A stretch of DNA of 22,442 nucleotides from a virus, in the IMG/VR virus record IMGVR_UViG_3300001213_000163, positions 1 to 22,442 of that record. One strand, 5' to 3'. Position numbers and translations under genes: made by a program. This document shows, one piece after another, positions 4,332-21,181 of the stretch (position 1 is its first letter; each line of letters opens with the position of its first letter). The notes under the pieces were generated by a model. That model saw only the letters and a list, made by a program, of their open reading frames with translations, searched no databases and was not told the origin of the DNA.

Positions 4332-4637
4332 CTAGAGCAGATACCGCTCATAGAACCGCATCAGTTCGATATGCGTGTCGTAGCCTTGCGGCGTCAATCC
4401 TTGGTCCACTTGCCACGGCGGGCAGCATCGGTCGGGATCGAGTTCGTGCGCCTGCTGACGTAGCGCCTTGGCCTCCTCGATCTTGAGCCGCGCCCCCGTC
4501 CAGTCATGATCCTTCCGCATCCGCTGCGCGTGGCGATGCGCGAGCACTGACGCCTGGAGCAGTGCGCGGACCTGTTCCGGCACTTCGGGCGGCGGTTCCG
4601 GCTTCGGAGGCTTGCCAGCGTCAGGAGGCTTTGGCAT
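4332..4637 (-). CDS. Proline-rich small protein (101 aa), unknown
   Basis: The gene starts at ATG 4637, sharing one base with the stop of the fibre-like gene upstream (TAATG), and ends 9 nt before portal. Residues 3-20 are almost all Pro, Lys and Glu (KPPDAGKPPKPEPPPEVPE). The rest is helical, with an ALLQASVLAHRHAQRMRKDH segment and a C-terminal ELMRFYERYLL. One CC pair is present. It is sandwiched between two virion genes, so a small structural or assembly role is plausible. No family is recognised. Confidence 0.7.
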   Translation of the reverse strand: MPKPPDAGKPPKPEPPPEVPEQVRALLQASVLAHRHAQRMRKDHDWTGARLKIEEAKALRQQAHELDPDRCCPPWQVDQGLTPQGYDTHIELMRFYERYLL

Positions 4638-6364
4638 TACTCGTACACCACCGTACAGCCGGCGTTAGCCGTAGCGACGACCAAGGTTAGCCCAACTGTG
4701 AAGGCCGCGTCCTGTAGGTTGATGTCGAAAGGCGTCGTCAGCGCACCCATCGACCCACTCGTCCACAGAACCGCACCCGTAGAAGCGAGCGCGTCGTACA
4801 GCGTTACCACGGCGTTATTGGACACGCTGTTGATGGCGATGCCGCGCACGTTCCCGGGGCCGTACTTCAGAACGACGCCCGCTGTCTGGCCCACCGCGAA
4901 GTTGTAATAGACCGGTTGCGTAACGAGCTGTCCCAACCGGGCGATATGCGCCGTCCGCGTGAAGTACGACACCGCAGCGGAGTTGCCCGAGTTCACTACG
5001 TCCATCCAGACGTAGAAGTGAACCGTATCCGTCAGCGTCGTCGTGGAGCCTGTGACCTTGTGCAGCGGAACCCCGCCCACGGCGAAGGTAAACGACCCAT
5101 TCGTGAGCAGGATCTCCCAAACTGTGTTATTGGTCGTGGGAGCGTAGGTATACCCAAGCTGGCCGTTGAACGATCCCGAGGACACACGCGTCTCGTTGCC
5201 TGTCTTGAGCGTCACCACGGAGAACGTGGTCCCGTCCAGTTCAAAGTACGCGCCGTCCGTGATCGTGGGCATCGCGGACGATGCCGCAGCCACGCCCCAC
5301 CGCCTCTTGACGTTCGCCGTTCCAGTGTCTCCGAGCCGCATGTGCGCCCGGAACTTGTTGGTCGCGCCTGAGACGTACCGAGCCGCACGCTTGGAGTAGA
5401 GGCGGGCATAGTGCCCGTTCGCAGTCCCGCTCTTGATCTCGACGTTCGACCCCGAGATGGTGACGGTGCCGGTCGAAACCGAGGTTAGCCAGAAGTTAGG
5501 ATCGAGCGTCCCGCCCTCGAACTGCGCCCCCACCAACCGATACCGGGGCGAGGTCTGTAGCTCCTGATTGGGCGTGAACGCTGCCGGCCCGTTTCCAAAG
5601 TTGTCGCCCTGGACCGAGACCTTGAGGTTCCCCTGCGCGTCCAAGGAGCGCGGAACGGCCTCGACCACGGGACAAAGCGCCGTCTGAAGCCGGAACGTGG
5701 TGGTCGTCTCCGACATAGTTGTAACGACCACACGGACGTAGCTACTGATCGCCTGGACTGTCACGCCGAAGTTGGAGTTCGCGGTGTAGTAGTAGGTGTC
5801 GGACAAGTCCCAGTTCGGCGTGGCGTTCGGGGACTGCTGCACCTTGATGATGCAGTTCTTATCAGCCAAGAGCGATACCTGGATGCCGGCCACGCCGAGC
5901 GTCGAGGTCTTGGTCCCCGTGAAGGTGTAGCTATTCCCGGCGGCGAGATTGGTCGTGCTCGAGTTGTTCGCGTCGGCAATGACTGTCTGCACTGCCGCCA
6001 CGTTGAGATGCTTCGTCCCATCTGCCGCGTCCGAGGTGCCTATGGCGTTCCCGGCCGTGTCTTGGATCGTGGCCTTGAGCCCGCCTCCGGTAGCGAGCGC
6101 CGCCGGCAAGCCACCGTTCAGCAGCGTCCGCAGCCGCTTGAGGATCGCCACGACTGAGCCGTTCCCCGAAGCCGACTCCGTGTCCGTCGTCGCGCCCTCG
6201 GCAACGTCCGATCCATCGGGGACCATTACGGACACACCTACCGCACCATGAGGCTGCGTCCCCGGAACCCACTCGAGCGTCCCGATGTCCCAGAAGTGCA
6301 TCAGCGACGCGGACTGCACGTACTGCTGTGGGTATTCGTCGGGGTTGTTGCGGAGCAGTGTCAC
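4637..6364 (-). CDS. Beta-rich virion structural protein, fibre or decoration type (575 aa)
   Basis: The 575-aa product is dominated by Thr, Ser, Gly, Val and Asn, as in phage fibres and beta-sandwich decoration proteins. Residues about 20-35 contain a LMHFWDIGTLEWVPGTQP motif. Residues about 125-235 form one domain with the pattern ADKNCIIKVQQSPNATPNWD followed by alternating beta strands and VVEAVPRSLDAQGNLKV. Residues about 280-480 look like a carbohydrate-binding or jelly-roll beta-sandwich. The GTG start at 6364 overlaps the preceding stop as GTGA. It sits between terminase and portal rather than among tail genes, so it may be a head fibre or head-tail component. Structural nature is well supported; the exact location in the virion is inference. 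Confidence 0.78.
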   Translation of the reverse strand: MTLLRNNPDEYPQQYVQSASLMHFWDIGTLEWVPGTQPHGAVGVSVMVPDGSDVAEGATTDTESASGNGSVVAILKRLRTLLNGGLPAALATGGGLKATIQDTAGNAIGTSDAADGTKHLNVAAVQTVIADANNSSTTNLAAGNSYTFTGTKTSTLGVAGIQVSLLADKNCIIKVQQSPNATPNWDLSDTYYYTANSNFGVTVQAISSYVRVVVTTMSETTTTFRLQTALCPVVEAVPRSLDAQGNLKVSVQGDNFGNGPAAFTPNQELQTSPRYRLVGAQFEGGTLDPNFWLTSVSTGTVTISGSNVEIKSGTANGHYARLYSKRAARYVSGATNKFRAHMRLGDTGTANVKRRWGVAAASSAMPTITDGAYFELDGTTFSVVTLKTGNETRVSSGSFNGQLGYTYAPTTNNTVWEILLTNGSFTFAVGGVPLHKVTGSTTTLTDTVHFYVWMDVVNSGNSAAVSYFTRTAHIARLGQLVTQPVYYNFAVGQTAGVVLKYGPGNVRGIAINSVSNNAVVTLYDALASTGAVLWTSGSMGALTTPFDINLQDAAFTVGLTLVVATANAGCTVVYE

Positions 6365-6582
6365 CGCGTCACCTTGGCCTTGAGGTCCCAGAGCACCTTG
6401 CCTAACTCCTCACGGACTGCCCGGAGCACGGCCTCCTTGCCCGTCAGCAGCCCTATCGGCCGCTGCGCCAGCCTCGCGCACACGTCCTCAACCATGTCCG
6501 TCTCGATGCCGTCCTTGCCGGCCCTCCATTTCACGATCTCGCCGGTTTGCTTGTAGACGACCTGGAGGCGGTAGTCGCTCAT
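6361..6582 (-). CDS. Small protein between terminase and structural gene (73 aa), unknown
   Basis: The gene starts at ATG 6582, overlapping the terminase stop as ATGA, and its own stop overlaps the next GTG. The product begins MSDYRLQVVYKQTGEIVKWR, a short beta hairpin, then has a helical half with VEDVCARLAQRPIGLLTGKE and AVLRAVREELGKVLWDLKAK. Similar small proteins follow TerL in other phages, but no function is known to me. Tight coupling on both sides makes it a confident gene with an unknown role. Confidence 0.75.
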   Translation of the reverse strand: MSDYRLQVVYKQTGEIVKWRAGKDGIETDMVEDVCARLAQRPIGLLTGKEAVLRAVREELGKVLWDLKAKVTR

Positions 6583-7904
6583 GACCAGCCCCACGCCGCC
6601 GGCATCGGCGGCACCTCGGCGCGCTTCTGCTCGCGCGGAATCTGATGCCGCACCGCAAGCCCTCGGAGCGCGTCGCTCGCGTGGCTCGCCCAGTCGTGCA
6701 CGGGCGTCGCCTTGAACTCGTTGAGACGCTGGTTGTAGTCGCGGCGGTAGTGCATCAGCGCCTCGAGCCCGGCCTTACACTTCTCCGCGTCGAACCAGCA
6801 GCGAGGAAGTAGCATCCGAACGGCGTGGATGCCTTCCTCCACTTCTCCAGCCATCGCGTCATGGATGCGTGGGTGCTGGTCGAAGCGGATGCCGAGGGCG
6901 AGTGCCACCTCGAGACGCGACCGGCCCGAGGACAGTTCGCGCACCTGGATATCGTGCGGAGCCCAATGCTTGCCATAGCTATACCCGCGCCCGCGCAGCA
7001 TCGTGGCATAGTGCGGGAAGCCCTCGCCGGAGGCTTCGTAGTAGTCGATCAGCCGCACCTCGCCCGACCGTAGCGACTGCGAGAACCAGACGGCCATCGC
7101 GTCCCCGATGCCGAGGTCCCAATCCGTGTCCACCGGCAGCGCGGGATCGTAGGGGACCGAGGTTATCCGCCCGGCAACGCGGCACTCCTCGAGTTCGCGG
7201 GTGTAGATCGCGCCCTTGACCGAAGCCTCGAATGAGCACTCATACTCCTGCGCGTACTCATCGCGTGTCATTACGGCGCGGGCCTTGGCTAGCTCCTGCT
7301 CGGGGACTAGCCCCGTCTCCGAGGCGGGATAGGAGCGGAAGAACCAATCGGCGTCTCCCGCGAACTCACGCGCCCGAGAGGTCTGCATCTGGTCGTAGAG
7401 TTCGTTGTCCCGCCCGTTCGGCGTGCCACAGAACATGGACCAGCCCTGCCGGTCAACCAGTGTCGCGCGCAGAACCTCGCTATAGACGTTCCGCGCCATG
7501 AGCGAAGCCTCGTCTAGCACGATGCCATCGAAGTACAGCCCGCGCAGCGACTGCGGGTTGTCCGCGCCGTAGATGCGGACCTGGCCCCCGTTCGGGAAGT
7601 CCACGCGCAGTTCGGACTGGTTCACCTTCACGCCCGGGAACGGAGACGAGTAGTGGACGAGGTAATCCCACGCGGCAGACTTCTCCTGCGAGTACGTCGG
7701 CCCGATCAGACCAAAGCGAGGCCGATCCTTCTTGCATTCAATCGCACCCCGGATCAGTTGATTCACGGCCAAAACGGTCTTTCCGAAGCGGCGGTGACAA
7801 ACCAGCACGCCGAACCGGGCGCCCTTGCGGAATAGGTCATGGATCGCACGCTGCTGCGGGCGCGGCTTGTACGGGATCGTGACGACAACCTCGCCCTTAC
7901 TCAT
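6579..7904 (-). CDS. terL: Terminase large subunit, packaging ATPase and nuclease
   Basis: This 441-aa protein has both terminase domains. The ATPase half shows Walker A CHRRFGKT at residues 36-43, Walker B IVLDEA at 128-133 and the coupling motif FCGTPNG at 158-164. The RNase-H-fold nuclease half shows acidic residues in VDTDWDLGIGD (258-268), followed by a HWAPHDIQVREL motif and a final HASDALR. It cuts concatemeric DNA and pumps it through the portal. The length is typical (about 430-500 aa). ATG 7904 overlaps the small-subunit stop by eight bases, so the two subunits are coupled. Confidence 0.96.
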   Translation of the reverse strand: MSKGEVVVTIPYKPRPQQRAIHDLFRKGARFGVLVCHRRFGKTVLAVNQLIRGAIECKKDRPRFGLIGPTYSQEKSAAWDYLVHYSSPFPGVKVNQSELRVDFPNGGQVRIYGADNPQSLRGLYFDGIVLDEASLMARNVYSEVLRATLVDRQGWSMFCGTPNGRDNELYDQMQTSRAREFAGDADWFFRSYPASETGLVPEQELAKARAVMTRDEYAQEYECSFEASVKGAIYTRELEECRVAGRITSVPYDPALPVDTDWDLGIGDAMAVWFSQSLRSGEVRLIDYYEASGEGFPHYATMLRGRGYSYGKHWAPHDIQVRELSSGRSRLEVALALGIRFDQHPRIHDAMAGEVEEGIHAVRMLLPRCWFDAEKCKAGLEALMHYRRDYNQRLNEFKATPVHDWASHASDALRGLAVRHQIPREQKRAEVPPMPAAWGWS

Positions 7905-8298
7905 CAGCCCAACGCACTACCAGATTCACCGGGAACGGAACAGTCGGCTCCTGCTCTGCGGGCTTATCTATCGCGCGGTTCATCAGGTCCGTGAACGCTT
8001 GGATGGACGGATCTTTCGCCCATACCTCGATGATTTCCTCTTCGGTGTTGAGCTTCTCCGGCGTCTCCACCACGCGCTCAAACTTCCCGCTTTTCTTCGA
8101 CCGGACGACAAGGAACTTGAGCCCAAGAGCGTTCTCGATCTGCGCGCTCACAAGGTCGGGCATCTTCTCGAGGACTTGCTTGCGTAGCTTGTCCCGCGCC
8201 TTGAGTTTGAGTGCTTGGGACTCCGCGAACACGCCGGGCGGGCGAACCACCTTGCCCCGTGGCCGACCACCTCCGCGACGAGCGCCACCGCGAGGCAT
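7897..8298 (-). CDS. terS: Terminase small subunit (133 aa)
   Basis: The product opens MPRGGARRGGGRPRGK, the basic PRGGxRxGxGRP leader common to many phage small terminases. A helical body follows with LKARDKLRKQVLEKMPDLV, a central segment of charged residues and a C-terminal EEIIEVWAKDPSIQAFTDLM. It would recognise packaging sites and hand DNA to TerL. It lies directly upstream of TerL with coupled start and stop. The ATG at 8298 shares one base with the stop of the preceding small gene (TAATG). The assignment comes from the N-terminal motif and position. Confidence 0.85.
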   Translation of the reverse strand: MPRGGARRGGGRPRGKVVRPPGVFAESQALKLKARDKLRKQVLEKMPDLVSAQIENALGLKFLVVRSKKSGKFERVVETPEKLNTEEEIIEVWAKDPSIQAFTDLMNRAIDKPAEQEPTVPFPVNLVVRWADE

Positions 8299-8426: not shown

Positions 8427-8578
8427 TTGCGCTTCTTGCCCTTCTTCACGCCCTCGTCGGCCATCTCGCCAAGCTTCTTAGCGCCGAGGGACGCGAGGTC
8501 GCCCAGACTGCCCTTGCTCGGCTTCCAGCCGTGCTCAAGAGCCCGGAACGTGTGAACCTGCTTCGCCGTCCAAGGCAT
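8423..8578 (-). CDS. Small basic protein (51 aa), unknown
   Basis: The gene starts at ATG 8578, sharing one base with the upstream stop (TGATG), after a purine-rich GGGGGAAG site. The product begins MPWTAKQVHTFRALEHGWKP and ends GVKKGKKRK. A short helix-rich protein with a strongly basic tail could bind nucleic acid, but no family is recognised. Similar MPWTxKQxRLFRAxxHG openings occur in small proteins next to terminase genes in other phages, which fits its place just ahead of terS. Junction tiling makes the gene call firm. Confidence 0.68.
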   Translation of the reverse strand: MPWTAKQVHTFRALEHGWKPSKGSLGDLASLGAKKLGEMADEGVKKGKKRK

Positions 8579-9087
8579 CACTTCCCCCGTATCGCGTGGA
8601 CGCTGTTATTCACGGCCAGCCCCGCGCATACGCCCACGTAGATCCAGCGGGCGATCTTGGCTTCCTTGGAGTGGCCGCTCTTCTCCAGCTTCCAGATCGC
8701 GCCCATCGTGCCTGTCATGGCGGCTAGCTTGAGGGCGATGCGAGACTCCACGTTCACGCCGAGCGGATTTTGCTCGTAGCACGTCGGACACTTGTGCAGC
8801 GCCCATCCGGTGGTGCCGAGGTCGGCGGCGGAGGCCATCCCTACCCACCAGCCGTGGTCGGCCATGCGGTCTGCGAGGTTGATGAGCACCACGCGGTCGG
8901 TGTCGGGAGGCTGATACTGCGCCGGCCCAACTACCTCCGTCTTGGAGCAGTAGACCAGCGTAGAAGTGCAGCCACCTCCCTCGTACTCGCAGGTAACGGT
9001 ATTGCAGCCGTCAGGGGATGGGAATGAACAGGGGTACTTCTCGCACGGAGGCCCCATCAGCGCGGCGGCGAGGAGTAGGGAGAGCAT
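8578..9087 (-). CDS. Secreted or membrane Cys-rich protein (169 aa), unknown
   Basis: I chose ATG 9087, which lies six bases after GGAG and shares one base with the upstream TGA; a GTG three bases earlier is possible. The N-terminus MLSLLLAAALMGPPC looks like a short export signal. It is followed by a cysteine cluster (C15, C20, C28, C33, C40, C47). The second half has three hydrophobic stretches around WWVGMASAADLGTTGWAL, ALKLAAMTGTMGAIW and ARWIYVGVCAGLAVN, with ADLGTTGW...CYEQNPLG between. This resembles small multi-spanning membrane proteins with a conserved NP motif. It closes the exported-protein run before terminase. Role unknown. Confidence 0.75.
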   Translation of the reverse strand: MLSLLLAAALMGPPCEKYPCSFPSPDGCNTVTCEYEGGGCTSTLVYCSKTEVVGPAQYQPPDTDRVVLINLADRMADHGWWVGMASAADLGTTGWALHKCPTCYEQNPLGVNVESRIALKLAAMTGTMGAIWKLEKSGHSKEAKIARWIYVGVCAGLAVNNSVHAIRGK

Positions 9088-9857
9088 CACGGTCTCCAGG
9101 CGTAGATTTCCGCCACTTCCGCTGCGGACAAGGTGTAGGCATAGATCCGCACGTCATCGAGCGTTCCAGCCCAGTAGCGATTTGACCCTGTGGGCCACCA
9201 TCCCATGCTGAACGTAGCGTCCCCGTCGTAGAAAATCGTCGCCGTGGTGCCTGTGTAGTTCACGACAGGAGTCGTGTTCCCGTCGAGGTACATCTTGACG
9301 TTAGTTCCGCTCTTGGTTACTGCAACGTGGTGCCAAGCTGCGGATGGGATCACGAAGTCCTGGGAGCTAGTGTTCTCACCTGCGAGGCTACCAGTTGTCC
9401 AGTTGAACTGATACTTCGTGCGGTCGGCGGCTCCGGTCTGACAGAAGGCCCAGCCTCCGTTGATCGGACTTGAATTGGCCCCGATGTGCACCAGCACCGT
9501 AGCAACCGCTACCTGTGACGCGCTCGCGTTGATCCAGAAGGCGAGGCTCATGTTGTTCGTGAGCCGTACGAAGTTCGCGTTCGTCGTGGCTCGCTGGCTA
9601 GATCCGTTCAGGATCAGGGCGGCCGTACCGATCTTCTGCGTGGTCGTGTCCCACGCCGGAGAACCGGTCAGCGTGCCGTGGAATTCTCGCCTGGAAGAAT
9701 CGCGGAATATCGTCCCCGATCCTTCGTCAAGATGCCACCATCCGACTAAGCCGCTTCGCTCCATGATCCATGCGGAAGTGATCTTGACCGGCCCCGTAAT
9801 CGTCTGCCCGCTGACCAGCGCGGGGAGCAGCAGCAGCGCGAGGAGTAGGCGCTTCAC
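9087..9857 (-). CDS. Secreted LamG/concanavalin-A-like lectin-fold protein (256 aa)
   Basis: The start is GTG 9857, which overlaps the upstream stop (GTGA) with GGAG eight bases before. The first 18 residues (VKRLLLALLLLPALVSGQ) are a Sec signal peptide. Residues about 36-256 form a LamG/Laminin_G_3-type beta-sandwich: LVGWWHLDEGSGT near 37-49, AWHHVAVTK at 174-182, MYLDGN at 189-194, and the closing GTLDDVRIYAYTLSAAEV at 231-248. This fold usually binds glycans or forms structural layers. The signal peptide predicts transport to the periplasm or beyond, unlike normal virion lectins that assemble in the cytoplasm. Confidence 0.88.
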   Translation of the reverse strand: MKRLLLALLLLPALVSGQTITGPVKITSAWIMERSGLVGWWHLDEGSGTIFRDSSRREFHGTLTGSPAWDTTTQKIGTAALILNGSSQRATTNANFVRLTNNMSLAFWINASASQVAVATVLVHIGANSSPINGGWAFCQTGAADRTKYQFNWTTGSLAGENTSSQDFVIPSAAWHHVAVTKSGTNVKMYLDGNTTPVVNYTGTTATIFYDGDATFSMGWWPTGSNRYWAGTLDDVRIYAYTLSAAEVAEIYAWRP

Positions 9858-9967
9858 TTCTTCATCTCCTTCATCGCAGCCCGGTAGCCCGCGCACCACG
9901 ACTCACGGTTGCTCGGCCGGTAGCACCGCGAGCACTGCGCGCCGCGAGGGCAGACGTGCTTCCGCAC
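9854..9967 (-). CDS. Cysteine-rich mini-protein (37 aa), unknown
   Basis: The start is GTG 9967, two bases after the upstream TAA and just after a strong GGAGG four bases away. The stop overlaps the next GTG. The product, VRKHVCPRGAQCSRCYRPSN followed by 17 more residues, has cysteines at 6, 12, 15 and 25 and a basic helical tail ending KEMKK. The cysteines could bind zinc or form disulfides. It has no signal peptide, although both neighbours do. The strong ribosome site and exact tiling support a real gene; the function is unknown. Confidence 0.6.
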   Translation of the reverse strand: MRKHVCPRGAQCSRCYRPSNRESWCAGYRAAMKEMKK

Positions 9968-9968
9968 G

Positions 9969-10430
9969 TTACCTCCAAGCGAGGCAGACGAAGCAACCGG
10001 CAGACTTGCCGAACGCCGCACACACTTCGTCCTGCTGCGCCTGCGTGGCAGACCTACAGAATGCTCGGGCATCGTCCCCGTCTAGCTGGATCGTCTGCGC
10101 GTCGTACGAAGCCAGCGGTCCCTTAACCAGAACCAACCCAATGAACGCCTGGCGTCCCGCGAGCGTACCCGCGTAGATCCGGCATCCGGCAGCGTTCGCC
10201 TGAGCCGCAGTGCAAGCTGCTCCGCCCTCGGCGTTGTAGGCCACACACGCCTGAGCCTGCGTGCAGTCGTAGGCGAGTCCCTTCGCCATGCACGTTGCAC
10301 GGTTCATCAACAGGCGCCCGTTGTTGAGAGAGGCTACCTGGGGCGCAGTGAGGTCGATGCTGTACGTCTCCTGCGCCGAGGCCACGCCCGCCACCAGCAA
10401 CACCAGAACGGCAAAGATCAGTCGCTTCAT
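9969..10430 (-). CDS. Secreted Cys-rich protein (153 aa), unknown
   Basis: ATG 10430 follows AGGGGGAATTCG, a good ribosome site, ten bases after the stop of the fibre-like gene. Residues 1-19 (MKRLIFAVLVLLVAGVASA) are a clear Sec signal peptide with an ASA cleavage site before Gln20. The mature part has nine cysteines spread over about 130 residues and several Ala/Gln-rich helical stretches, with no long hydrophobic segment. That suggests a disulfide-linked periplasmic or extracellular protein. It is one of four neighbours with matching signal peptides. No family is recognised. Confidence 0.78.
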   Translation of the reverse strand: MKRLIFAVLVLLVAGVASAQETYSIDLTAPQVASLNNGRLLMNRATCMAKGLAYDCTQAQACVAYNAEGGAACTAAQANAAGCRIYAGTLAGRQAFIGLVLVKGPLASYDAQTIQLDGDDARAFCRSATQAQQDEVCAAFGKSAGCFVCLAWR

Positions 10431-10440
10431 CGAATTCCCC

Positions 10441-11808
10441 CTAGCTAACCGTGACCGGGCCGTGAACAATCGCGGTCCAAGTGATGTATGCGCCGTTGAC
10501 CGTCATGTCCGAGTCGATGTCGAACGTCACCTTCGCCACGTTCGCTGTCGCCACGTCGAGCGCAATGGCGTAGGTCAGCGTCTTGGACGAGGTGTTGATG
10601 ATGACCGACTCGTCGTCAGTCTCGTTCGTCGCATCCTTGGCGCAGGTCACGGTCGTCGCATTGTTCACACACGCAAAGCGGAAAGACCCCTGCCGGATGG
10701 CGTAATCCGGCGTCGCGTCCTTCGCGTGAACCCGGTACGAGAACTCCACACCGAACGAGTTGGTCGTCGTGGACGTGAACGTGGCGACCAGTTCGGCCGC
10801 TCCGCCTTCGGTCAGCGTCACGGTCTTGGAATAGAACAACTGATCCGCCGCCGTAGTGTTGACCGATAGCCCGCCGCCGTTCGGGACCGTCACCGTGGGC
10901 GTTCCGTTGTCCTGGAACTCCGCAATTGCTCCCGTGCTCGTCCCGTTGTTGACCACCAGCGTCTTGGCCGATCCGCCACCGAAGCCCGTCACAGTCAGCG
11001 GAACCCCGGTCGCTGCGATGCTAGCCACGGAGGTCGGCCCCGAGAGCGTCATCGCTCCCTCGTCGTCAATGACAAAGCGATTCGTCAGGGTGCCGGGAGT
11101 GCTTCCCGCGCCACCGGTCGGAGCCGTCCTGAAGATATGCGAGCCACCATTCCCGGCGCCCGTGGGTCTGCCGGCGTCATGGTAGAACGTCGCCCCGCTG
11201 ATGTCTGTCCCCACTCCATCCTGAGCCGCGATCACAAGATCGGTTGGCGTCGCGCTCGAGGTTGCACCCACCGTCAGCGCCGTAGAGGTCAACGTGGTTG
11301 CCAGCGCGTCATTCGTGATCGAGAAAATGTCCGTCCCGTCCGACTTCTCCACCACAAAGGGCTGCGTGGTCTGCGTGCTATGCCCCTGGACCTTCAACTG
11401 AATCGCATCGGCCGAGCCGTCGATAGTGACCGCTCCGGTAAACGTGGTGCTAGCGATCTTGGTCGCCGTTAGCGTATCGGTCGCAAACGTGAGGTCCGAA
11501 TCATCCGACAGCAATCCAGCAGCCCCCGCGAATACAACCCGCGTCGCCGTGAGCCCGCTGTCCGTAATCGAAGTCGAGCCGATGATCTTGGTAGCTGTCA
11601 GCGTGTCGGTCGAGAACGTCAGATCCGCGTCCTGCCCGAGATTCCCCGAGCCGTCCACGAACAGCACGCGGGTAGCAGTACCGCCCGACACGGCATCACC
11701 GATGGTCATCCCGCCCCCGCCACCACCGCCGCCTCCAAGCAGAATCGCTTGAGCCGAGGCAAACGACGGAGCCGCAAGGAACGCGCACGCCAGAAGTAGG
11801 CGCTTCAT
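10441..11808 (-). CDS. Tail-fibre-like repeat protein carrying a signal peptide (455 aa)
   Basis: Residues 1-19 (MKRLLLACAFLAAPSFASA) form a Sec signal peptide. After Gln20 comes a run of nine glycines (25-33). Then a unit reading TATRVLFVDGSGNLGQD and DLTFSTDTLTATKI (about 44-75) recurs with changes at 87-118, a 43-residue period. This TxTRVxFxxxxGxLxxDxxLTFxxDTLTAT motif and Gly-rich stalk are typical of phage fibre or receptor-binding proteins. Beta-rich Thr/Ser/Gly sequence fills the rest, with a globular C-terminal domain from about 325. ATG 11808 starts one base after the upstream stop. The signal peptide is out of character for a virion fibre. Confidence 0.82.
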   Translation of the reverse strand: MKRLLLACAFLAAPSFASAQAILLGGGGGGGGGMTIGDAVSGGTATRVLFVDGSGNLGQDADLTFSTDTLTATKIIGSTSITDSGLTATRVVFAGAAGLLSDDSDLTFATDTLTATKIASTTFTGAVTIDGSADAIQLKVQGHSTQTTQPFVVEKSDGTDIFSITNDALATTLTSTALTVGATSSATPTDLVIAAQDGVGTDISGATFYHDAGRPTGAGNGGSHIFRTAPTGGAGSTPGTLTNRFVIDDEGAMTLSGPTSVASIAATGVPLTVTGFGGGSAKTLVVNNGTSTGAIAEFQDNGTPTVTVPNGGGLSVNTTAADQLFYSKTVTLTEGGAAELVATFTSTTTNSFGVEFSYRVHAKDATPDYAIRQGSFRFACVNNATTVTCAKDATNETDDESVIINTSSKTLTYAIALDVATANVAKVTFDIDSDMTVNGAYITWTAIVHGPVTVS

Positions 11809-11809
11809 G

Positions 11810-12340
11810 TCACTGCGCCGCAGCGTAGTACTGCACCTTCAACGCGCCGTCCGAACTGCCGGCCCGGATGAACTTGATCCGCCTGATCGAGTCCTCGCCG
11901 CAGATCAGCAGCGCCGGCTGAGACGACTGGTCCCAATACAGCCCAATGGCAGACGTGGGCGTGGTCCCATCAGCCAGGAACCGGAGGTCCGCAGTCTCAA
12001 GCGTGGCGTAGGCAACGACCGGCTTCTTTGTGGGGTCCACAGTAATCACGCGCCAGTAGGCTGTATCCGTCACGGCCTTGACCGTCGAGCTAGGTCCATT
12101 CGCGGCCAGGCACAGATAGTTCGTGGTCCCGCTCGAGACCATGTTGCCGACAACGTAGTCGACGCCGTTGCTGTACGCGGTCGCCAAGTTCCCCGTGCCC
12201 AAGTGCAGTTGCAACGCCGTGGTAGAGACGGTCAGCGCCTCGTACCCGAGCGCCACCGCAGGCGCAAGCTGGCCGGGACACTGCGCCGCAGCCGGGGCCG
12301 ACAGCCCAAGCAGCACGCACAGCAGTAACAGTCTCTTCAT
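11810..12340 (-). CDS. Secreted beta-rich protein, fibre-associated (176 aa)
   Basis: ATG 12340 overlaps the upstream stop as ATGA. Residues 1-19 (MKRLLLLCVLLGLSAPAAA) are a signal peptide with an AAA cleavage site before Gln20 and Cys21. The spacing is not a standard lipobox. The mature part has a NGVDYVVGNMVSSGTTNYLC stretch, which resembles the short carbohydrate-binding-like modules in phage tail proteins (YxxGxxVxxxGxxYxCxxAxxG...WRxI). A C-terminal beta-rich half follows. It is placed immediately before the fibre-like gene and shares its signal peptide, suggesting the two work at the same site outside the cytoplasm. Confidence 0.75.
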   Translation of the reverse strand: MKRLLLLCVLLGLSAPAAAQCPGQLAPAVALGYEALTVSTTALQLHLGTGNLATAYSNGVDYVVGNMVSSGTTNYLCLAANGPSSTVKAVTDTAYWRVITVDPTKKPVVAYATLETADLRFLADGTTPTSAIGLYWDQSSQPALLICGEDSIRRIKFIRAGSSDGALKVQYYAAAQ

Positions 12341-12507
12341 CGATCCCCTCCCGCCGGCTGCTGCTTTGACACGAGCGCCAGCACGTCCTGAGCCATTCTT
12401 TGCAAAAGCCCTAGCTTGGCCTCGAGCATGACTACCTGAATCCTTGCGGCCTGTCGGATCTCACAATCCGGTAGGTTCGCGGGGCAGTTCAGTTCAATCT
12501 TTTCCAC
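12337..12507 (-). CDS. Small protein after the spanin candidate (56 aa), unknown
   Basis: A GTG at 12507, nine bases after GGAGG, begins inside the end of the upstream gene. The frame stops in a TGA that overlaps the next ATG (ATGA). The product VEKIELNCPANLPDCEIRQA plus 36 residues has two cysteines near the N-terminus. An amphipathic helix (residues about 21-48, rich in Leu, Val and Ala) follows. It has no signal peptide or lipobox, so it does not look like an outer-membrane spanin lipoprotein despite its position. Tiling on both sides supports the call. Confidence 0.65.
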   Translation of the reverse strand: MEKIELNCPANLPDCEIRQAARIQVVMLEAKLGLLQRMAQDVLALVSKQQPAGGDR

Positions 12508-12793
12508 GATGCCCGCCCTCCGTCAACAAGTGATCGAGGATCCGCTTGAGCAAGTCTTGCAAGTCGTCCAGCCGACCTGTCAAGTGCTCGCGGAACTCCC
12601 GATGTTGGTTCTCGAGCGCCGCTATCCGCCCCGCGTTGGACTCGGCTCGATTGGCTAGGTTGTGGGTCGCATCCACCGCGCCCTCGACACGCCGGAACCA
12701 TGAGCCGGCGAACCAAGACGCGAGGATGATCCCCGCCCCAACGCCAGCGATGAGAAAGGCCATATCGCTGGCTAACGCAGTTCCGCCGTTCAC
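12494..12793 (-). CDS. Membrane-anchored coiled-coil protein, inner-membrane spanin candidate (99 aa)
   Basis: GTG 12793 overlaps the upstream stop (GTGA), though no clear ribosome site precedes it; a Met at residue 11 is an alternative start. Residues about 11-32 (MAFLIAGVGAGIILASWFAG) form one transmembrane helix. Residues about 38-92 are a charged coiled coil with heptad Leu/Ile/Ala (IAALENQHREFREHLTGRLD, LQDLLKRILDHLL). An N-terminal anchor plus periplasmic coiled coil is the architecture of i-spanins such as lambda Rz (family knowledge). It follows the holin candidate, as expected in a lysis cassette. No partner o-spanin lipoprotein was found nearby, so the call is tentative. Confidence 0.55.
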   Translation of the reverse strand: MNGGTALASDMAFLIAGVGAGIILASWFAGSWFRRVEGAVDATHNLANRAESNAGRIAALENQHREFREHLTGRLDDLQDLLKRILDHLLTEGGHRGKD

Positions 12794-12987
12794 GGGTTCG
12801 GGGGCGACGGTGGCTTCGGCGCATAGTACGAATCGGACTTGACCATCCCGCTACCAAGGCAGAACGTCGCCAAGGCGAGCACAACCTGGTCAAGCCAAGG
12901 CGGCGCGTCGGGAACGGCCTTGATGATCGCGTCCAGTGCAAGCAGCAGGGCGCCGATCTTCGCTTTGTTGGCTAAGAACCAGGTCAT
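12790..12987 (-). CDS. Holin candidate, small two-helix membrane protein (65 aa)
   Basis: ATG 12987 follows a GGAAGGAAGCG ribosome site and overlaps the stop of the 28-aa gene. The protein opens MTWFLANKAKIGALLLALDA with a hydrophobic helix about 11-26. A second helix covers about 32-50 (LDQVVLALATFCLGSGMV), and the C-terminal tail is Pro-rich (APKPPSPPNP). Short length, two membrane helices with a Pro-containing turn, and a place between the endolysin region and a spanin-like gene match class II/III holins. Holins share little sequence, so this is a context-based call. Confidence 0.55.
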   Translation of the reverse strand: MTWFLANKAKIGALLLALDAIIKAVPDAPPWLDQVVLALATFCLGSGMVKSDSYYAPKPPSPPNP

Positions 12988-13070
12988 CGCTTCCTTCCCT
13001 TCCACCACCTCAAAGCGAGGTGGCCGAAGAACACGGCACTAGCGACACTGCCGAGATACGGAAACGTCAC
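12984..13070 (-). CDS. 28-aa membrane micro-protein in the lysis region
   Basis: A GTG at 13070 overlaps the upstream stop (GTGA), and the frame ends in a TGA overlapping the holin-candidate ATG, so it fills the gap exactly. The product begins VTFPYLGSVASAVFFGHLAL and ends RWWKGRKR. It is one short hydrophobic helix followed by aromatic residues and a basic tail, which suits a single-span membrane peptide with its C-terminus in the cytoplasm. There is no strong ribosome site, so expression would depend on coupling. It could be an antiholin or lysis modulator, or a simple coupling peptide. Confidence comes from the exact fit and sensible composition. Confidence 0.5.
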   Translation of the reverse strand: MTFPYLGSVASAVFFGHLALRWWKGRKR

Positions 13071-13759: not shown

Positions 13760-14062
13760 CTACCACGTGAAACGCACGGCCAACTCGGCGTCGAGCGGCC
13801 CCGAGTACGGCTTGTAGCACGCCGCTGCAATGCTCCAGTGGTCGCCTATGCGCGCCGCTAGCGAGAGACTGGCGCCCGTCCCGTCCAGATGCCCTACCGC
13901 CGCCCCGCGCCTGCCCTCGGGCACCGTAGCGAGCGCAGCGTCCAAGTCCGCTTGGATGCGGGAGTCGAGAAAGCGCCTGATCGGCCCGGAAGGGGTGTCA
14001 GTCTCGTACAGCTTGCCGCCCTCGAGGACGCGAGCGGCTAGGCCAATGGTTGGCGTCGTCAT
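13760..14062 (-). CDS. Hypothetical protein downstream of endolysin (100 aa)
   Basis: ATG 14062 overlaps the endolysin stop (ATGA) after a GAGGCTGAGGC site, so translation is coupled to the endolysin. Residues 1-50 are mixed helical (TIGLAARVLEGGKLYETDTP). Residues 55-100 alternate polar and hydrophobic residues (GASLSLAARIGDHWSIAAAC), ending AVRFTW. The alternating pattern and aromatic C-terminus resemble beta-barrel strands, but there is no signal peptide. Function is unknown; a lysis-associated role would be inferred from position only. Confidence 0.65.
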   Translation of the reverse strand: MTTPTIGLAARVLEGGKLYETDTPSGPIRRFLDSRIQADLDAALATVPEGRRGAAVGHLDGTGASLSLAARIGDHWSIAAACYKPYSGPLDAELAVRFTW

Positions 14063-14616
14063 GCCTCAGCCTCGTGCAAGATCGGGAGATCCCAGATAGC
14101 GCACGCCAGCCGCCAGCGTCGCAGCCGGTCGTCCCATCCGTTCATCCCGCCGTTGATCCGGCGCGTGATCTGCCTGATTCCCTCGAGGCTATGCTGGTCC
14201 GCGAGCGGGTTACAGCCCTTGAGGCGCCATATCCAGCCGGAGATGGCGAAGCCTAGCCCGGGGCGTAACACTGCGTCAGGGTCGGCCTCGAGGTCCACGC
14301 CAAGCGCTTGGCCTGCGTCGTGGTACATCGCTCTGCCCGTGATCTGCAATGGGCCTCGGCCGTGGAACAGCTTGCCGTCGCCCGGCTGTACGTTGCCTAA
14401 GTCCGCGCGTCCTTCGTAGCCTCGCTGCGCTTCGGTCGGCCCCCAAAGCTCAGACCAGATCGTGAGGCCGGCCGATTCGTGACCGACCTGAGCCACGAAC
14501 GCGGCGCAGCGCCTCGGCGTGATGATGCTGAAGCGGAGCATCGCGTCGGCCATTGGCTTGTACATGAGCGCAACACTTGCGCGAGGGAACGCTGCGCGAA
14601 ACTGCTGCTCCGTCAC
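14059..14616 (-). CDS. GH19 (chitinase-like) endolysin
   Basis: This 185-aa protein is a single catalytic domain of the GH19 lysozyme type. Key motifs are FVAQVGHESAG at residues 40-50 with the likely catalytic acid Glu47, YEGRADLGN at 67-75 with a second acidic residue Glu68, and FHGRGPLQITGR at 84-95. Helical segments follow with GCNPLADQHSLEGIRQITRRI. It would cleave glycan strands of peptidoglycan at the end of infection. No signal peptide is present, so it needs a holin. The start is GTG 14616 without a clear ribosome site, directly behind three palindromes. It is the first gene of the left block. Confidence 0.92.
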   Translation of the reverse strand: MTEQQFRAAFPRASVALMYKPMADAMLRFSIITPRRCAAFVAQVGHESAGLTIWSELWGPTEAQRGYEGRADLGNVQPGDGKLFHGRGPLQITGRAMYHDAGQALGVDLEADPDAVLRPGLGFAISGWIWRLKGCNPLADQHSLEGIRQITRRINGGMNGWDDRLRRWRLACAIWDLPILHEAEA

Positions 14617-15227: not shown

Positions 15228-15437
15228 ATGAGCAAGAGCGAGCGACGCAGACTGCGTGAGTACGTACTCCGACGCTACAAGAGCCGGGGCGGCCGGGCCG
15301 TCCGCATCGGCTCCGATGGCGCTGTAATGGTGCTGCTCAAGGGTGACGGATCTCAGATGCTGCAGGGCGTCGATGAGTCGGCCGGACGGTATTTCGCGGG
15401 ATGGGCGCCCGAGCTGCTGCGCGAGGCCAGTTTCTAG
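15228..15437 (+). CDS. Plus-strand small basic protein (69 aa), unknown
   Basis: ATG 15228 lies 12 nt after the previous stop behind a GAGGGGACAGGG purine stretch. The N-terminus (MSKSERRRLREYVLRRYKSR) is strongly basic and helical. A short beta section with AVMVLLKGDGSQML follows, and the C-terminus reads YFAGWAPELLREASF. A basic helix plus a small beta part could bind nucleic acid. It is the second and last gene of the unit, with the terminator 18 nt after its stop. Function is unknown. Confidence 0.72.
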   Translation: MSKSERRRLREYVLRRYKSRGGRAVRIGSDGAVMVLLKGDGSQMLQGVDESAGRYFAGWAPELLREASF

Positions 15438-15455
15438 CGCGCCCACCGGAACGTC

Positions 15456-15487
15456 AACGCCCCGGAGGGCTAACTCCGGGGCGTTTT
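15456..15487 (+). terminator. Intrinsic terminator of the plus-strand unit
   Basis: AACGCCCCGGAG (15456-15467) and CTCCGGGGCGTT (15474-15485) form a perfect 12-bp stem with a six-base loop, ending in TTTT. On the minus strand no T-run follows, so it should mainly stop rightward transcription. Confidence 0.85.
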
Positions 15488-15513
15488 GCGTTCCTGGGGC
15501 ATCGTGGGGCGTG

Positions 15514-15684
15514 GAGCGGGCTTTACCGCTCGCGGGGCACGCGCCGGTTGGCGTCTGCGCGGCGTGTGCTTGGGGATCGTCAGCAGGAGCGGCGGCGCAG
15601 ATCAGCGCGCTTTCCAGGGACAGGAACGGCCCGCGCCAGCTTAGGCCGTGGTCCTCGCCGTCTGTGCCGCCGCTCCTGCTGACG
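15514..15684. repeat. Long inverted repeat and hairpin array in the convergent intergenic region
   Basis: The 316 bases between the plus-strand gene and the right block hold no gene. After the terminator come a 6-bp stem (15514-15519 with 15526-15531) and a stem of about 10 bp with one G-U pair (15537-15546 with 15560-15569). Then comes a 24-bp arm (15578-15601) matching its partner (15661-15684) at 23 positions, with the core GTCAGCAGGAGCGGCGGC. The 59-nt loop itself carries CGGCC/GGCCG. Neither strand shows a T-run after the long stem. It may be a structured RNA, a transcription barrier between converging units or a small mobile-element relic. Confidence 0.6.
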
Positions 15685-15753
15685 GTCACGCCGGGGACGC
15701 CTGCGTCATGCGGATTCCCCCATTCTGACGCCGGGAGTATTGTACCATGCGTG

Positions 15754-15990
15754 TCAAGGGGTTTTGCGGCGCTTGATGGCGCGGCGGATGCGGACCGAGA
15801 CGTTGCCGATCACGTCGGCTACCCATGGGTCGGTGGGATGCCCAACCCACGCACGCCGCTCGATCTCCGCACTCCTCAGCGCCAGCTTCAGGCCGTGGAG
15901 GATGCCCTTGGATCTCTCCAAAGCGATCATGGCGCGGTAGTCCTCCAGCGACGGGAACGTGACGCTGATCGGCTTTGGCTTCCTAGCCAT
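15754..15990 (-). CDS. Last gene of the right block (78 aa), unknown
   Basis: ATG 15990 lies after GGAGGGGAGAG and overlaps the upstream stop by eight bases. The product starts MARKPKPISVTFPSLEDYRA and ends with a basic tail (RIRRAIKRRKTP). The middle is helical (IALERSKGILHGLKLALRSAEI). No cysteines or membrane segment are seen. No family is recognised. It ends the leftward transcript just before the hairpin array. Confidence 0.68.
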   Translation of the reverse strand: MARKPKPISVTFPSLEDYRAMIALERSKGILHGLKLALRSAEIERRAWVGHPTDPWVADVIGNVSVRIRRAIKRRKTP

Positions 15991-16288
15991 CTCTCCCCTC
16001 CAGCACCTCGGCTACGCGGGAGGACTTGGCCTGCTCCCACACGGCACAGCCTCCGCACATTGGCTCGATCCCGTTACGCTTTCCACACGAGCACGCCCTA
16101 TTGTCCCCCGCCTCGATCAGCCTCTGCGCCCGAGCCTCGCTCTCCTCCAGCGCATCGAGGGCACGCCGAGTCACACACGGCCACTCGCGTGCTCCGCACT
16201 GGCAGACCGTCTTGGAGTGAAATGCATGTTTATACGGCATGTGCCAGAGCCGGGCCTCCTCGATCTTGGCCATCAGCCTGTCATCCAT
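15983..16288 (-). CDS. Small Cys-rich protein with WPCxTRR module (101 aa)
   Basis: ATG 16288 overlaps the upstream stop by eight bases with GGAGG before it. The product has CQCGAREWPCVTRRALDALEE (residues 29-49) and a second Cys group with C66, C68, C78 and C81. The first module closely matches that of the neighbouring 87-aa protein, and both end LEGR(N/D)G, so the two are paralogues. The Cys groups could bind zinc. Proteins with a WPCxTRRxxDALEE motif occur as small accessory genes in phages, but their function is not known to me. Confidence 0.7.
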   Translation of the reverse strand: MDDRLMAKIEEARLWHMPYKHAFHSKTVCQCGAREWPCVTRRALDALEESEARAQRLIEAGDNRACSCGKRNGIEPMCGGCAVWEQAKSSRVAEVLEGRDG

Positions 16289-16544
16289 TGCGTCCCTCCA
16301 GCTTGGCGAGGATCGGGAAGATGTCGCCTCGCTTGTACTCCTCCGAAGTAAACAGCAGGTTCGCGTTGAGAGCCTCGATCTGCCGTAGTGCCTCCTCCAG
16401 CGCGTCGGCGAAGCGCCGCGTTTCGCAAGGCCACTGCTCTCGGCAAATGGGGCAGTAGTCTTCGCCCGCGACTGCCCCGTGGCGGTAGTGGCGCGCCTTT
16501 GCGAATGCGATCCTCTCGCGGAGGCGGGTGGTGGGGTCGCTCAT
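16281..16544 (-). CDS. Small Cys-containing protein with WPCxTRR module (87 aa)
   Basis: ATG 16544 overlaps the upstream stop (ATGA) inside a copy of the 21-bp junction repeat. The product has CPICREQWPCETRRFADALEE at residues 31-51, preceded by a basic helix and followed by a helical tail ending LEGRNG. It is a paralogue of the next gene, with the same WPCxTRR core and the same ending. CxxC plus a third Cys may bind zinc. Function unknown. Confidence 0.7.
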   Translation of the reverse strand: MSDPTTRLRERIAFAKARHYRHGAVAGEDYCPICREQWPCETRRFADALEEALRQIEALNANLLFTSEEYKRGDIFPILAKLEGRNG

Positions 16545-18524: not shown

Positions 18525-18697
18525 GCCTTCCTCTTCGGCGCAACAACGACCTCGCGCACGTAGTAGATCCGATGCGGAGGGCCGCCGCGAAGCTCGCATC
18601 CCTTCGCGGCCTTTACCGCTTGCTCATGCGTCTTATGCTTCGTGCAGATTCCCCACGACCAGATCGTCCAATACTGGCCCTCGAGCAGTTTCTTCAT
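18521..18697 (-). CDS. Small protein between initiator and loader (58 aa), unknown
   Basis: ATG 18697 overlaps the initiator stop (ATGA), with GGAGG five bases upstream. The product starts MKKLLEGQYWTIWSWGICTK and looks like a small beta-alpha-beta unit: strand, helix (THEQAVKAAKGCEL), strand (RIYYVREVVVA) and a basic end KRKA. Similar small folds are common in phages. Its function is unknown, but it is co-translated with replication genes. Confidence 0.68.
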   Translation of the reverse strand: MKKLLEGQYWTIWSWGICTKHKTHEQAVKAAKGCELRGGPPHRIYYVREVVVAPKRKA

Positions 18698-19512
18698 GCC
18701 TTCCTCCCCGCGACGAACTCCGCGAGCACGCGCTTGTTCGTCTCGCTGATCTGGTCGGCCTTGCTCATCCGGTGCCCGATGGTCGATGCCGCGCCCTCGG
18801 CCCATTGCCCTAGCCCCTGGACGAACCGAGCCGGCCGCGCCCACTCCGCACGCTCAGCAGCCGCAAGGAAGCGGCGCCAGCGGGCAACCGCCTCCATCGG
18901 TCCCACCTTCTCCTCGGCTTCCTTGACCGCACGGGCCATCTCCCCGTAGGGAGGCTTGCTCTCGGCTCCCCAACGCTCCATCCATGCCTCCCCGTAGGGC
19001 GTTAGCTGCGTGTCATGCCCTTTCCGGGCGCCGCCGTTCCCCTTGGCGAGTGACCTCGAGGAAGGCGTCGAACCGCCCGGCGCGGAAGCGCCGGAAGTCT
19101 GTTTAACCGTAGATCCCGTAGATCCTGTAGATCCTGATGGGCAGGTTGTGTTACTAGCACTATGCTTTCCCCATGCTAGTATGATACTTGGATCAGGCTC
19201 AGGGATAAGTGACTGAGCCTCCTTGATATGCGGCCATTGGTGTTGATGCCATTTCGGGATGGCGATGAACTTCTGGCCGTTCACCGAGTAGCGGATGATG
19301 AACCCGCTGGACTCGAGCGAGGCCAACTGCTCGTCCGGGTCAGTGCTGTCATAGGGCAAACACTGTGCTTTTATGCGGCTCGGCCTGTCCTCGAGCCGGC
19401 CCTCTCGATCAGCGATACACCAGAGGCCGGCGAACAGGAGACGCGTCAGCGGCGGAAGTGACGCCAAAACTTCGTTGGCGAAAAAGCCGGGACGGATCAG
19501 CCGTTGCCTCAC
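18694..19512 (-). CDS. Replication initiator, lambda-O-like (272 aa)
   Basis: I chose GTG 19512, eight bases after GGAGG and overlapping the HNH stop (GTGA); an upstream TTG would add five residues. Residues about 5-105 form a winged-helix domain, IRPGFFANEVLASLPPLTRL with LLFAGLWCIADREGRLEDRP. It continues with SLESSGFIIRYSVNGQKFIA and IPKWHQHQWPHIKE, a pattern well known from phage replication proteins. Residues about 118-165 are a Ser/Gly/Thr linker, and the C-terminal part is helical and Trp-rich. It would bind the origin and recruit the helicase loader encoded downstream. The linker DNA carries iteron-like repeats. Confidence 0.8.
   Translation of the reverse strand: MRQRLIRPGFFANEVLASLPPLTRLLFAGLWCIADREGRLEDRPSRIKAQCLPYDSTDPDEQLASLESSGFIIRYSVNGQKFIAIPKWHQHQWPHIKEAQSLIPEPDPSIILAWGKHSASNTTCPSGSTGSTGSTVKQTSGASAPGGSTPSSRSLAKGNGGARKGHDTQLTPYGEAWMERWGAESKPPYGEMARAVKEAEEKVGPMEAVARWRRFLAAAERAEWARPARFVQGLGQWAEGAASTIGHRMSKADQISETNKRVLAEFVAGRKA
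19109..19219. other. Candidate replication origin inside the initiator gene
   Basis: Three tandem 9-bp repeats, GTAGATCCY at 19109-19117, 19118-19126 and 19127-19135, encode Gly-Ser-Thr units of the linker. Next to them is a locally less GC-rich stretch with two inverted repeats: TACTAGCA (19152-19159) with TGCTAGTA (19174-19181), and GGCTCAG (19196-19202) with CTGAGCC (19213-19219). In lambda, iterons and an AT-rich element lie in the same part of gene O. The match in layout makes this a good origin candidate, but short repeats could also be a linker artefact. Confidence 0.45.
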
Positions 19513-20000
19513 GCGATGTGCCTCCAAGACTCATGCCTTGCAATTCTTGAAGCATGGACAGCAGTGATCCCAAAACACTGCGCGATAGCGATATAGGAAT
19601 GGCCAGCCTTGGCCATCAATCGAATCCTCACCACGATATCGGAGGTAAGTTTCGCCCTTGGATGTTGCTCTCCCCGCCGCATCTTTTCTGGGTGAAGCCT
19701 TGCGCCGGATCTGTCCCCCTTTGCCGTTCGCAGTTTTCTGTCTCGATCCGCCACATTGTCTTTTTGGGTTCCGATCCAAAGATGGGCGGGATTACAACAT
19801 GGGGGGGTATCGCAGGAATGAAGGATGAACATTCCACGCGGTATCGGGCCGCGCGCTAACTCCCATGCCACGCGATGGGCATAAATGCTAGCGGAATTGA
19901 AGTGACCGTAACCACTGGGAAACCGTGCTGCTGTCCATGGCCAGCAATCGGTCGCGCCACGGATATCGACCTTGCTCCAGAATCGGTGTATGATCCCCAT
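19509..20000 (-). CDS. HNH homing-type endonuclease with C-terminal HTH (163 aa)
   Basis: ATG 20000 lies one base after the upstream stop. The protein is an HNH_3-family nuclease: W8, CWPWT at residues 19-23, GYGHF at 30-34, AHR at 41-43, GPIPRG at 51-56, HSCD at 61-64, CCNPAHL at 68-74 and GTQKDN at 77-82. The histidines and asparagine form the metal-dependent active site, and the cysteines may bind zinc. Residues about 110-160 (KLTSDIVVRIRLMAKAGHSY and onwards) form a helix-turn-helix for target binding. Free-standing enzymes of this type are selfish homing nucleases. It sits directly in front of the replication initiator. Confidence 0.9.
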   Translation of the reverse strand: MGIIHRFWSKVDIRGATDCWPWTAARFPSGYGHFNSASIYAHRVAWELARGPIPRGMFILHSCDTPPCCNPAHLWIGTQKDNVADRDRKLRTAKGDRSGARLHPEKMRRGEQHPRAKLTSDIVVRIRLMAKAGHSYIAIAQCFGITAVHASRIARHESWRHIA

Positions 20001-20001
20001 G

Positions 20002-20256
20002 TCAGGCGACCTCATCGCCTGGCCCTCGCCGCAACCCCTGCTCCGATTCATTCTCGGGGCGGGGCCTGCCGACCGGCGGAGCCGTTGTGATCGTGGCACG
20101 TTCCGCTCGCCGTGTCAAGCCCAAAAGTGCCTCATCGCTCGCCCGCCGCCGGCAGCCTTGGCAGTACAGCTTGCTCGCCCCGCGCCTCGGCCTGCCGCAG
20201 CGCCGGCACCGGCCGCGAGCGAGTTGGCGAAGCTGCCAGAGGTATTGGCGGGTCAA
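20002..20256 (-). CDS. Small zinc-finger protein (84 aa)
   Basis: The start is ambiguous. TTG 20256 has AGGAG seven bases upstream and a tight TTGA overlap. ATG 20289 would add 11 residues and overlap the upstream gene by 37 nt. The product begins LTRQYLWQLRQLARGRCRRC with CxxC-x11-CxxC at residues 17-35 (LYCQGC closing), then a long polar tail. A short aromatic helix followed by a two-knuckle finger is a familiar small phage protein type, seen as RxYYxxLxxxGxCxxC. It probably binds nucleic acid; its role is unknown. Confidence 0.65.
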   Translation of the reverse strand: MTRQYLWQLRQLARGRCRRCGRPRRGASKLYCQGCRRRASDEALLGLTRRAERATITTAPPVGRPRPENESEQGLRRGPGDEVA

Positions 20257-20897: not shown

Positions 20898-21181
20898 CTG
20901 ACCACCTCCCACACCGTAGCCCGCCGTCCCGTGCGTGTCGGCCACGTCCGTCCCGTGTCGCGCACTAGGCCACGGTTCACTAGTTCGATCCGCCGGGGAC
21001 GCTCGGTCGATGGGTTCATGCCGAGGGCCACTTGGATCTCATCGTCCGTCGCGCCGCCGCGCTCGATCAGGAACTGAAGCACGCGCGAGCGTTCGTTGTC
21101 GTGGCGTAGCTCGGCAGCGACAGCTGCCTCCATCGAGGTGTCGCTGTGGCGCTGGTAGGGGAGCGACATCTGCGCGCTCAC
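20894..21181 (-). CDS. Winged-helix DNA-binding protein (95 aa)
   Basis: GTG 21181 overlaps the upstream stop (GTGA); a Met four codons later is possible. The N-terminal 25 residues (QRHSDTSMEAAVAAE) are flexible. Residues about 30-95 are a winged helix, RSRVLQFLIERGGATDDEIQ, then VALGMNPSTERPRRIELVNR, GLVRDTGRTWPTRTGRRATV and WEVV. The helix set and the GLVxDxG...TxxGRxAxVW wing are characteristic of a small phage family. It probably regulates phage genes, though no operator is evident. It lies upstream of the zinc and replication genes. Confidence 0.82.
   Translation of the reverse strand: MSAQMSLPYQRHSDTSMEAAVAAELRHDNERSRVLQFLIERGGATDDEIQVALGMNPSTERPRRIELVNRGLVRDTGRTWPTRTGRRATVWEVVR

Follow-up and report, generated by a model that had tools for sequence, protein, structure and literature searches.

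To our knowledge, the particles of tailed bacteriophages are assumed to be built entirely in the cytoplasm of the host cell. Virion proteins with cleaved leaders are represented by the coat proteins of inoviruses; among phage proteins acting at cell surfaces, Llp of phage T5 is a lipoprotein, and PblA and PblB of a Streptococcus mitis phage have no reported signal peptide. Llp blocks FhuA (PMC9586334), while PblA and PblB act at cell surfaces once lysis has set them free (PMC9917116). Phages of Porphyromonas gingivalis (proposed Nixviridae) encode five genes with Q-rule signal peptides, for which no function was assigned there (PMC10367356).

We examined five consecutive minus-strand genes (8578-12340) within 22,442 nucleotides of IMG/VR virus record IMGVR_UViG_3300001213_000163 (positions 1 to 22,442 of the record; this whole stretch is the window), a 22.4-kb fragment with 63% G+C from an uncultured podovirus-type (short-tailed) bacteriophage. 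These genes probably encode a late set of fibre- or decoration-type, partly glycan-binding proteins that is sent through the host Sec system and acts outside the cytoplasm. As judged from sequence, export of a virion-type, partly glycan-binding set appears well supported. A preliminary description had proposed the set as a candidate for an undescribed system; this agrees with our survey of the open-licence literature, in which we met no account of tailed phages of this group with leader-bearing proteins of virion type.

Leader predictions for the five window genes

Leaders were evaluated with a home-made position matrix derived from 34 Escherichia coli leaders, and all possible starts were scored. 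The 34 reference leaders themselves score 12.3-20.6, and a score of 7.5 was used as the pass cut. Four window proteins pass: those of 176 amino acids (11810-12340, score 12.2), 455 amino acids (10441-11808, 15.1), 153 amino acids (9969-10430, 17.0) and 256 amino acids (9087-9857, 8.0), the first three lying within the range of real leaders or at its margin. The fifth, of 169 amino acids (8578-9087), scores 2.1. Thus the gene calls and coordinates given in the preliminary description were right and its export signals were recovered for four genes, but not for 8578-9087.

The four accepted leaders (MKRLLLLCVLLGLSAPAAA/Q, MKRLLLACAFLAAPSFASA/Q, MKRLIFAVLVLLVAGVASA/Q and VKRLLLALLLLPALVSG/Q, in the order above) have the n-, h- and c-region anatomy of the Sec/signal peptidase I type, with an A-x-A type site and Gln at +1, and all share the (M/V)KRL-hydrophobic-Gln layout already recognized in the preliminary description. 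The weakest is that of the 256-residue protein, with a VSG/Q site and a GTG start. Clear Shine-Dalgarno sequences precede the leader-giving starts of 11810-12340 (gggagggg), 9969-10430 (aggggg) and 9087-9857 (aaggag, before the GTG). Since only 90 of 2886 genes of at least 100 amino acids in the loci of viral relatives (3.1%) pass the same cut, four leaders among five genes in a row are not a product of chance; the probability of at least four passing is ~5e-6, calculated against a background that includes relatives bearing leaders themselves. Inspection of the five translations found no lipobox ending in Cys at a usable position among residues 1-40, and lipoprotein export of the Llp/Cor type was therefore rejected. 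Apparent leaders in shadow reading frames (e.g. 15343-16458) were disregarded.

Glutamine occupies +1 in all four window leaders, in 24 of 33 leaders of the phage group and in 2 of 34 of the E. coli set, with the phage-group cleavage sites chosen by eye, which favours A-x-A/Q. The phage-group share is near the 71% described for leaders of Bacteroidetes (PMC5837995, PMC10653852). A scan of bacterial genomes gave relatives of the terminase large subunit (TerL) at no more than 53% identity in several phyla, and from this and the 63% G+C no host was inferred.

Leader-bearing and leaderless relatives

The best evidence that such leaders lead to an oxidising compartment is provided by a fibre- or decoration-type protein family that we named TTL for its TTL motif and whose gene immediately follows that of the major capsid protein in related podoviruses with a P22-type portal (adjacency checked for 17 loci; related loci carry L numbers). 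The family lacks a leader in 16 contigs, where it typically starts M-A-x-x-TTL, and bears one in seven (L139, L146, L147, L129, L234, L229 and L240), where predicted cleavage leaves Q-x-x-x-TTL; in the alignment this mature start coincides with the leaderless start. A conserved cysteine pair (G-x-C..C) is present in 7/7 leader-bearing members and in 0/18 leaderless sequences. The two cysteines are spaced by 21 residues in six of the seven, L240 having an insertion, and leaderless L131 and L206b retain the region of the pair without the cysteines. In the TTL tree the leader-bearing members fall into one of two subfamilies, alongside five leaderless members, and the association persists inside it (7/7 versus 0/5, Fisher 0.001, a figure that shared ancestry makes optimistic). 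The terminase tree requires at least five to six changes in the leader state of TTL, a number matched by shuffled labels. Because the cysteine pair occurs only with a leader, these data support real export of the leader-bearing TTL proteins into an oxidising compartment.

The TTL proteins themselves resemble virion components. In the structural model of the N-domain (predicted local distance difference test, pLDDT, mostly >80 over the block), the seven best matches are all phage virion proteins with Z of 8.0-11.0, comprising a tail tube, a capsid chain, a tail tip, a GP4 portal-tail chain, a baseplate and two tailspikes; unrelated ATPase barrels come next, at 7.9. Profile matches include a minor tail protein of phage Chi (E = 4e-5) and a JBD30 tip protein (E = 9e-5), and leaderless members match PHROG tail-fibre and baseplate families. 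Comparison of TTL with cultured phages gave no match.

Similar pairs occur elsewhere. A leader in L139 (19894-20802) precedes a domain that starts bare in Microcystis phage Mvi-Yong1342-1 (55% over 121 residues), and L010 encodes a leaderless counterpart of the leader-bearing L146 gene 10379-11338. Downstream of the capsid gene of the L139 contig, leader-bearing genes alternate with leaderless ones, and we take both to be structural. Where relatives were found, the exported proteins thus appear virion-type in kind, which for the window applies to the 176-residue protein by homology and, weakly, to the LamG protein (9087-9857). Two further leader-like arrangements were observed. In the 499-residue product of L147 10806-12305, a charged phage-type N-terminus of ~50 residues is followed by a leader-like stretch (ILTAILLLYAAPSFA/Q) and finally by a fibre-like region; two genes may have fused here, translation may begin further inside the frame, or the protein may be anchored. 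On a more distant contig, L249 20021-21259 encodes a leader-bearing protein of tail-fibre type (407 residues, QGGTGISS repeat start), which suggests that such fibres are distributed more widely than this clade.

The arrangement before the terminase genes also recurs, as comparison of the cluster across related phages showed. The terminase of L237 belongs to the other main clade of the TerL tree than that of the window, and its pre-terminase genes follow the window order: a leader-bearing homologue of the 176-residue protein, a fibre-type gene and a leader-bearing weak homologue of the 153-residue protein. The middle gene encodes a 348-residue Gly-rich protein of tail-fibre type (phrog_863, E = 2e-13) with a weaker hydrophobic start. 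Leader-bearing genes lie immediately before the terminase in L002 (70% TerL identity), L005, L069 and L202 as well, and across the first three of these the content differs: a 526-residue protein without family match (L002), a 773-residue leader-bearing beta-helix protein (PF13229) and related small proteins of 113-117 residues. Leader-bearing beta-helix proteins occur in L005 and L139, and the beta-helix of one relative has a weak, sub-threshold match to chondroitinase B. Between L005 (2933-3274) and L202 (6-329) the leader DNA is identical at 54 of 60 positions (90%) and the mature parts at 130 of 258 (~50%), while the terminase genes downstream have no detectable relation. Near-identical leaders before diverged mature parts and unrelated terminases suggest that leader and slot may travel as a module or cassette; strong selection on the leader is an alternative explanation. 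The capsid proteins proved too diverse for their alignment to serve for a scan.

The window proteins and their gene context

The 176-residue protein combines a CBM5/12-like insert with a C-terminal beta domain of virion type. The CBM5/12 match (E = 0.002, 18.6 bits versus a curated cut-off of 26.2) is below the Pfam threshold, and a similar stretch is found in tail fibres of L086 and L087. Relative to the homologues in L237, L234 and L015 this stretch is an insertion, so a sugar-binding module would have been gained by, or lost from, this small beta-domain protein. Homologues with a leader are encoded in L237 (E = 2.5e-9) and L234, and homologues without one in L015 (6713-7012, no Cys) and, via L237, in the complete genome MW202577.1, where the L237 protein matches a 95-residue protein (E = 5e-6) close behind a phrog_267 capsid gene. 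The window protein and its L237 homologue have two cysteines in common, the first close to the N-terminus of the mature protein and the second within the C-terminal strand region; the third cysteine of the window protein is inside the inserted CBM-like part. Its structure model gave generic cupin/jelly-roll matches only, at low significance.

The 455-residue protein, described earlier as tail-fibre-like, does have repeats and a fibre-like composition, but matched no family in searches of the Pfam/PHROG type, cultured phages and PDB sequences. The 176-residue protein likewise had no match among cultured phages, and PDB sequence searches with both proteins and the 526-residue L002 protein gave nothing meaningful. 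The 153-residue protein has nine cysteines in its mature part and a weak homologue in L237 (2107-2577, 23% identity, E = 3e-4). The LamG lectin fold of the 256-residue protein, also named in the preliminary description, is clear (Laminin_G_3, PF13385, E = 9e-21, 75 bits versus a curated cut-off of 27.6); it resembles an annotated virion structural protein of Vibrio phage D479 at 26% identity, cultured phages giving weak LamG matches only. The 169-residue protein is Cys-rich (nine Cys), with an uncharged hydrophobic start and a possible C-terminal membrane segment, and may or may not be exported. The same pre-terminase slot in L005 (2457-2936) encodes a 159-residue protein, possibly an outer-membrane barrel, that also starts uncharged and hydrophobic (MLPIILSAALLGG). 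Direct homologue scans with the 169-residue, 153-residue and LamG proteins gave nothing useful.

On the minus strand the order is GH19 endolysin, holin-like genes, the five-gene set, presumed terminase small subunit, terminase large subunit, portal and scaffold, which places the set between lysis and terminase genes as first described. The endolysin (14059-14616) matches PF00182 and phrog_181 (E = 9e-52), and two small holin/spanin-like membrane proteins (12494-13008) were recognized by hydrophobic segments in their translations, the family search with 12790-13008 matching no family. Neighbouring genes of the set are spaced by -1 to 111 bases. A stretch of 279 bases then leads to the presumed small subunit gene (7897-8298), which lies outside the set, directly upstream of and overlapping the TerL gene, and has no family match. 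TerL (6579-7904, PF03237) has its nearest cultured relatives, at ~45% identity, in Pelagibacter HTVC010P-type phages and Rhodoferax phage P26218, and the family search of window proteins gave a P22-like portal (PF16510, E = 5e-124). From their position in this late-operon-like row we infer that the five are late genes; a promoter and terminator scan was uninformative. Elsewhere on the minus strand, the interval between terminase and portal holds a leaderless 575-residue protein of fibre-like composition without family match (4637-6364), adjoining HNH endonuclease-type and NinG-like genes occupy 19509-20945 next door to a replication initiation protein (18694-19527), and a DUF3440 protein (21710-22442, E = 2e-37, weak match to 3'-phosphoadenosine-5'-phosphosulfate reductase) is cut by the window end.

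Candidate roles and comparison with known systems

Leader anatomy, position in the late row, recurrence in relatives, virion-type domains where homologues exist and the association of leaders with cysteines are all seen in the sequences. In the mechanism that we propose, signal peptidase I would cut a standard leader to leave an N-terminal Gln, and the mature proteins, presumably made late, would fold in the periplasm, where some would form disulphides, and would act outside the cytoplasm at the latest upon cell lysis. Several observations weigh against this explanation. The leaders were judged only with a home-made matrix, the 9087-9857 leader is weak, and 8578-9087 fails. Most relatives have no leader-bearing gene at the pre-terminase slot. 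A single origin of leader and cysteines in TTL is possible, and 7/7 does not represent seven independent events. Finally, only the 176-residue window protein has a demonstrated virion-type homologue, in addition to the weak one for LamG.

For the end use of the exported proteins we give roughly equal weight to docking onto released virions and to coating or clearing the host envelope and extracellular polysaccharide. The latter is a tentative possibility, in which the set would coat, mask or clear envelope or matrix glycans and so block superinfection, prevent loss of progeny on debris or open the matrix. It would account for the LamG and CBM-like domains of the window, for the beta-helix domains of relatives including the one with the weak chondroitinase B match, and for a slot whose content varies while the leader is constant, and it has precedents in T5 Llp (PMC9586334) and in the surface-binding PblA and PblB released by lysis (PMC9917116). 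However, neither a lipobox nor an outer-membrane anchor was seen, and crossing of the outer membrane before lysis is unexplained; moreover, a late-operon position is late for exclusion and the TTL slot is structural. Of the host-glycan binding suggested in the preliminary description, domains of glycan-binding type (LamG and the sub-threshold CBM5/12) were found, while the role is one option only. That description had also argued that virion parts assemble in the cytoplasm and that a secreted set near the head genes suggests another task. This argument is not secure, since the mature parts are virion-type where relatives were found and leaderless homologues lie directly behind the major capsid gene in other phages; an exported protein could join the virion after lysis, which makes a surface, decoy or capture role an option rather than a deduction.

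Attachment to virions after lysis is likewise a tentative possibility. Exported components would fold in the periplasm and bind finished particles when lysis mixes the compartments, as Hoc/Soc-type decoration proteins are able to bind finished heads. Leader-bearing TTL occupies the same post-capsid slot as leaderless TTL and the retrieved portions of contigs L139 and L147 contain no second copy, so its function may be kept; the fold matches virion domains, and a leaderless homologue of the 176-residue protein is encoded behind a capsid gene. Fibre genes of the ordinary leaderless kind occur too, as in the L139 contig, which indicates that the exported ones are dispensable for the virion, and the beta-helix and LamG proteins would equally fit a secreted role. 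The broader proposition, that tailed phages build part of the virion coat by export, using Sec and periplasmic disulphides and joining particles after lysis, is speculative to the same degree; if true, it would give them a disulphide-hardened, glycan-binding coat that the cytoplasm could not produce.

It is unlikely that the hydrophobic N-termini are uncleaved segments anchoring cytoplasmic virion proteins to membranes or particles: the mature modules are virion-type and export is predicted from sequence, but the complete n/h/c anatomy with A-x-A/Q stands exactly in front of the domain, and only leader-bearing members have the cysteine pair. Auxiliary metabolic cargo, namely secreted proteins active on carbohydrates that would nourish the host or break down polymers and be unrelated to particle or infection, could be represented by the leader-bearing beta-helix proteins of L005 and L139 but is improbable, given that no enzyme family was found in the window set, that TTL and the 176-residue protein are virion-type, and that a late-operon position is poor for aiding host metabolism. 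Export of the set thus remains our preferred explanation. Leaders placed exactly before virion-type domains, together with cysteine pairs confined to leader-bearing proteins, suggest a function outside the cytoplasm for part of what the late structural module encodes, and make it a testable question whether these products join virions after lysis or are secreted to condition the surface of the host.

Among described systems, the closest precedent is the Q-rule gene set of the Porphyromonas phages, likened here by description, in which several phage genes likewise have Sec leaders that expose Gln at +1; those phages differ in type and host, and their genes were not reported as virion-type modules or as leader/leaderless pairs. 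Superinfection exclusion of the T5 Llp type is also phage-encoded and envelope-acting, whereas the window proteins lack a lipobox, lie in a late operon and form a set. PblA and PblB differ in being human-pathogen adhesins freed by lysis, and inovirus coat proteins in being assembled at the inner membrane by phages that are not tailed. Head decoration and fibre proteins, such as the GP4 cement protein (PMC9698820), tailspikes and tail tips, share the slot beside the capsid gene and the virion-type beta domains with TTL, and a leaderless protein encoded behind a capsid gene is a homologue of the 176-residue protein; from these, the window and TTL proteins are distinguished by their leaders, and TTL also by its cysteine pairs.

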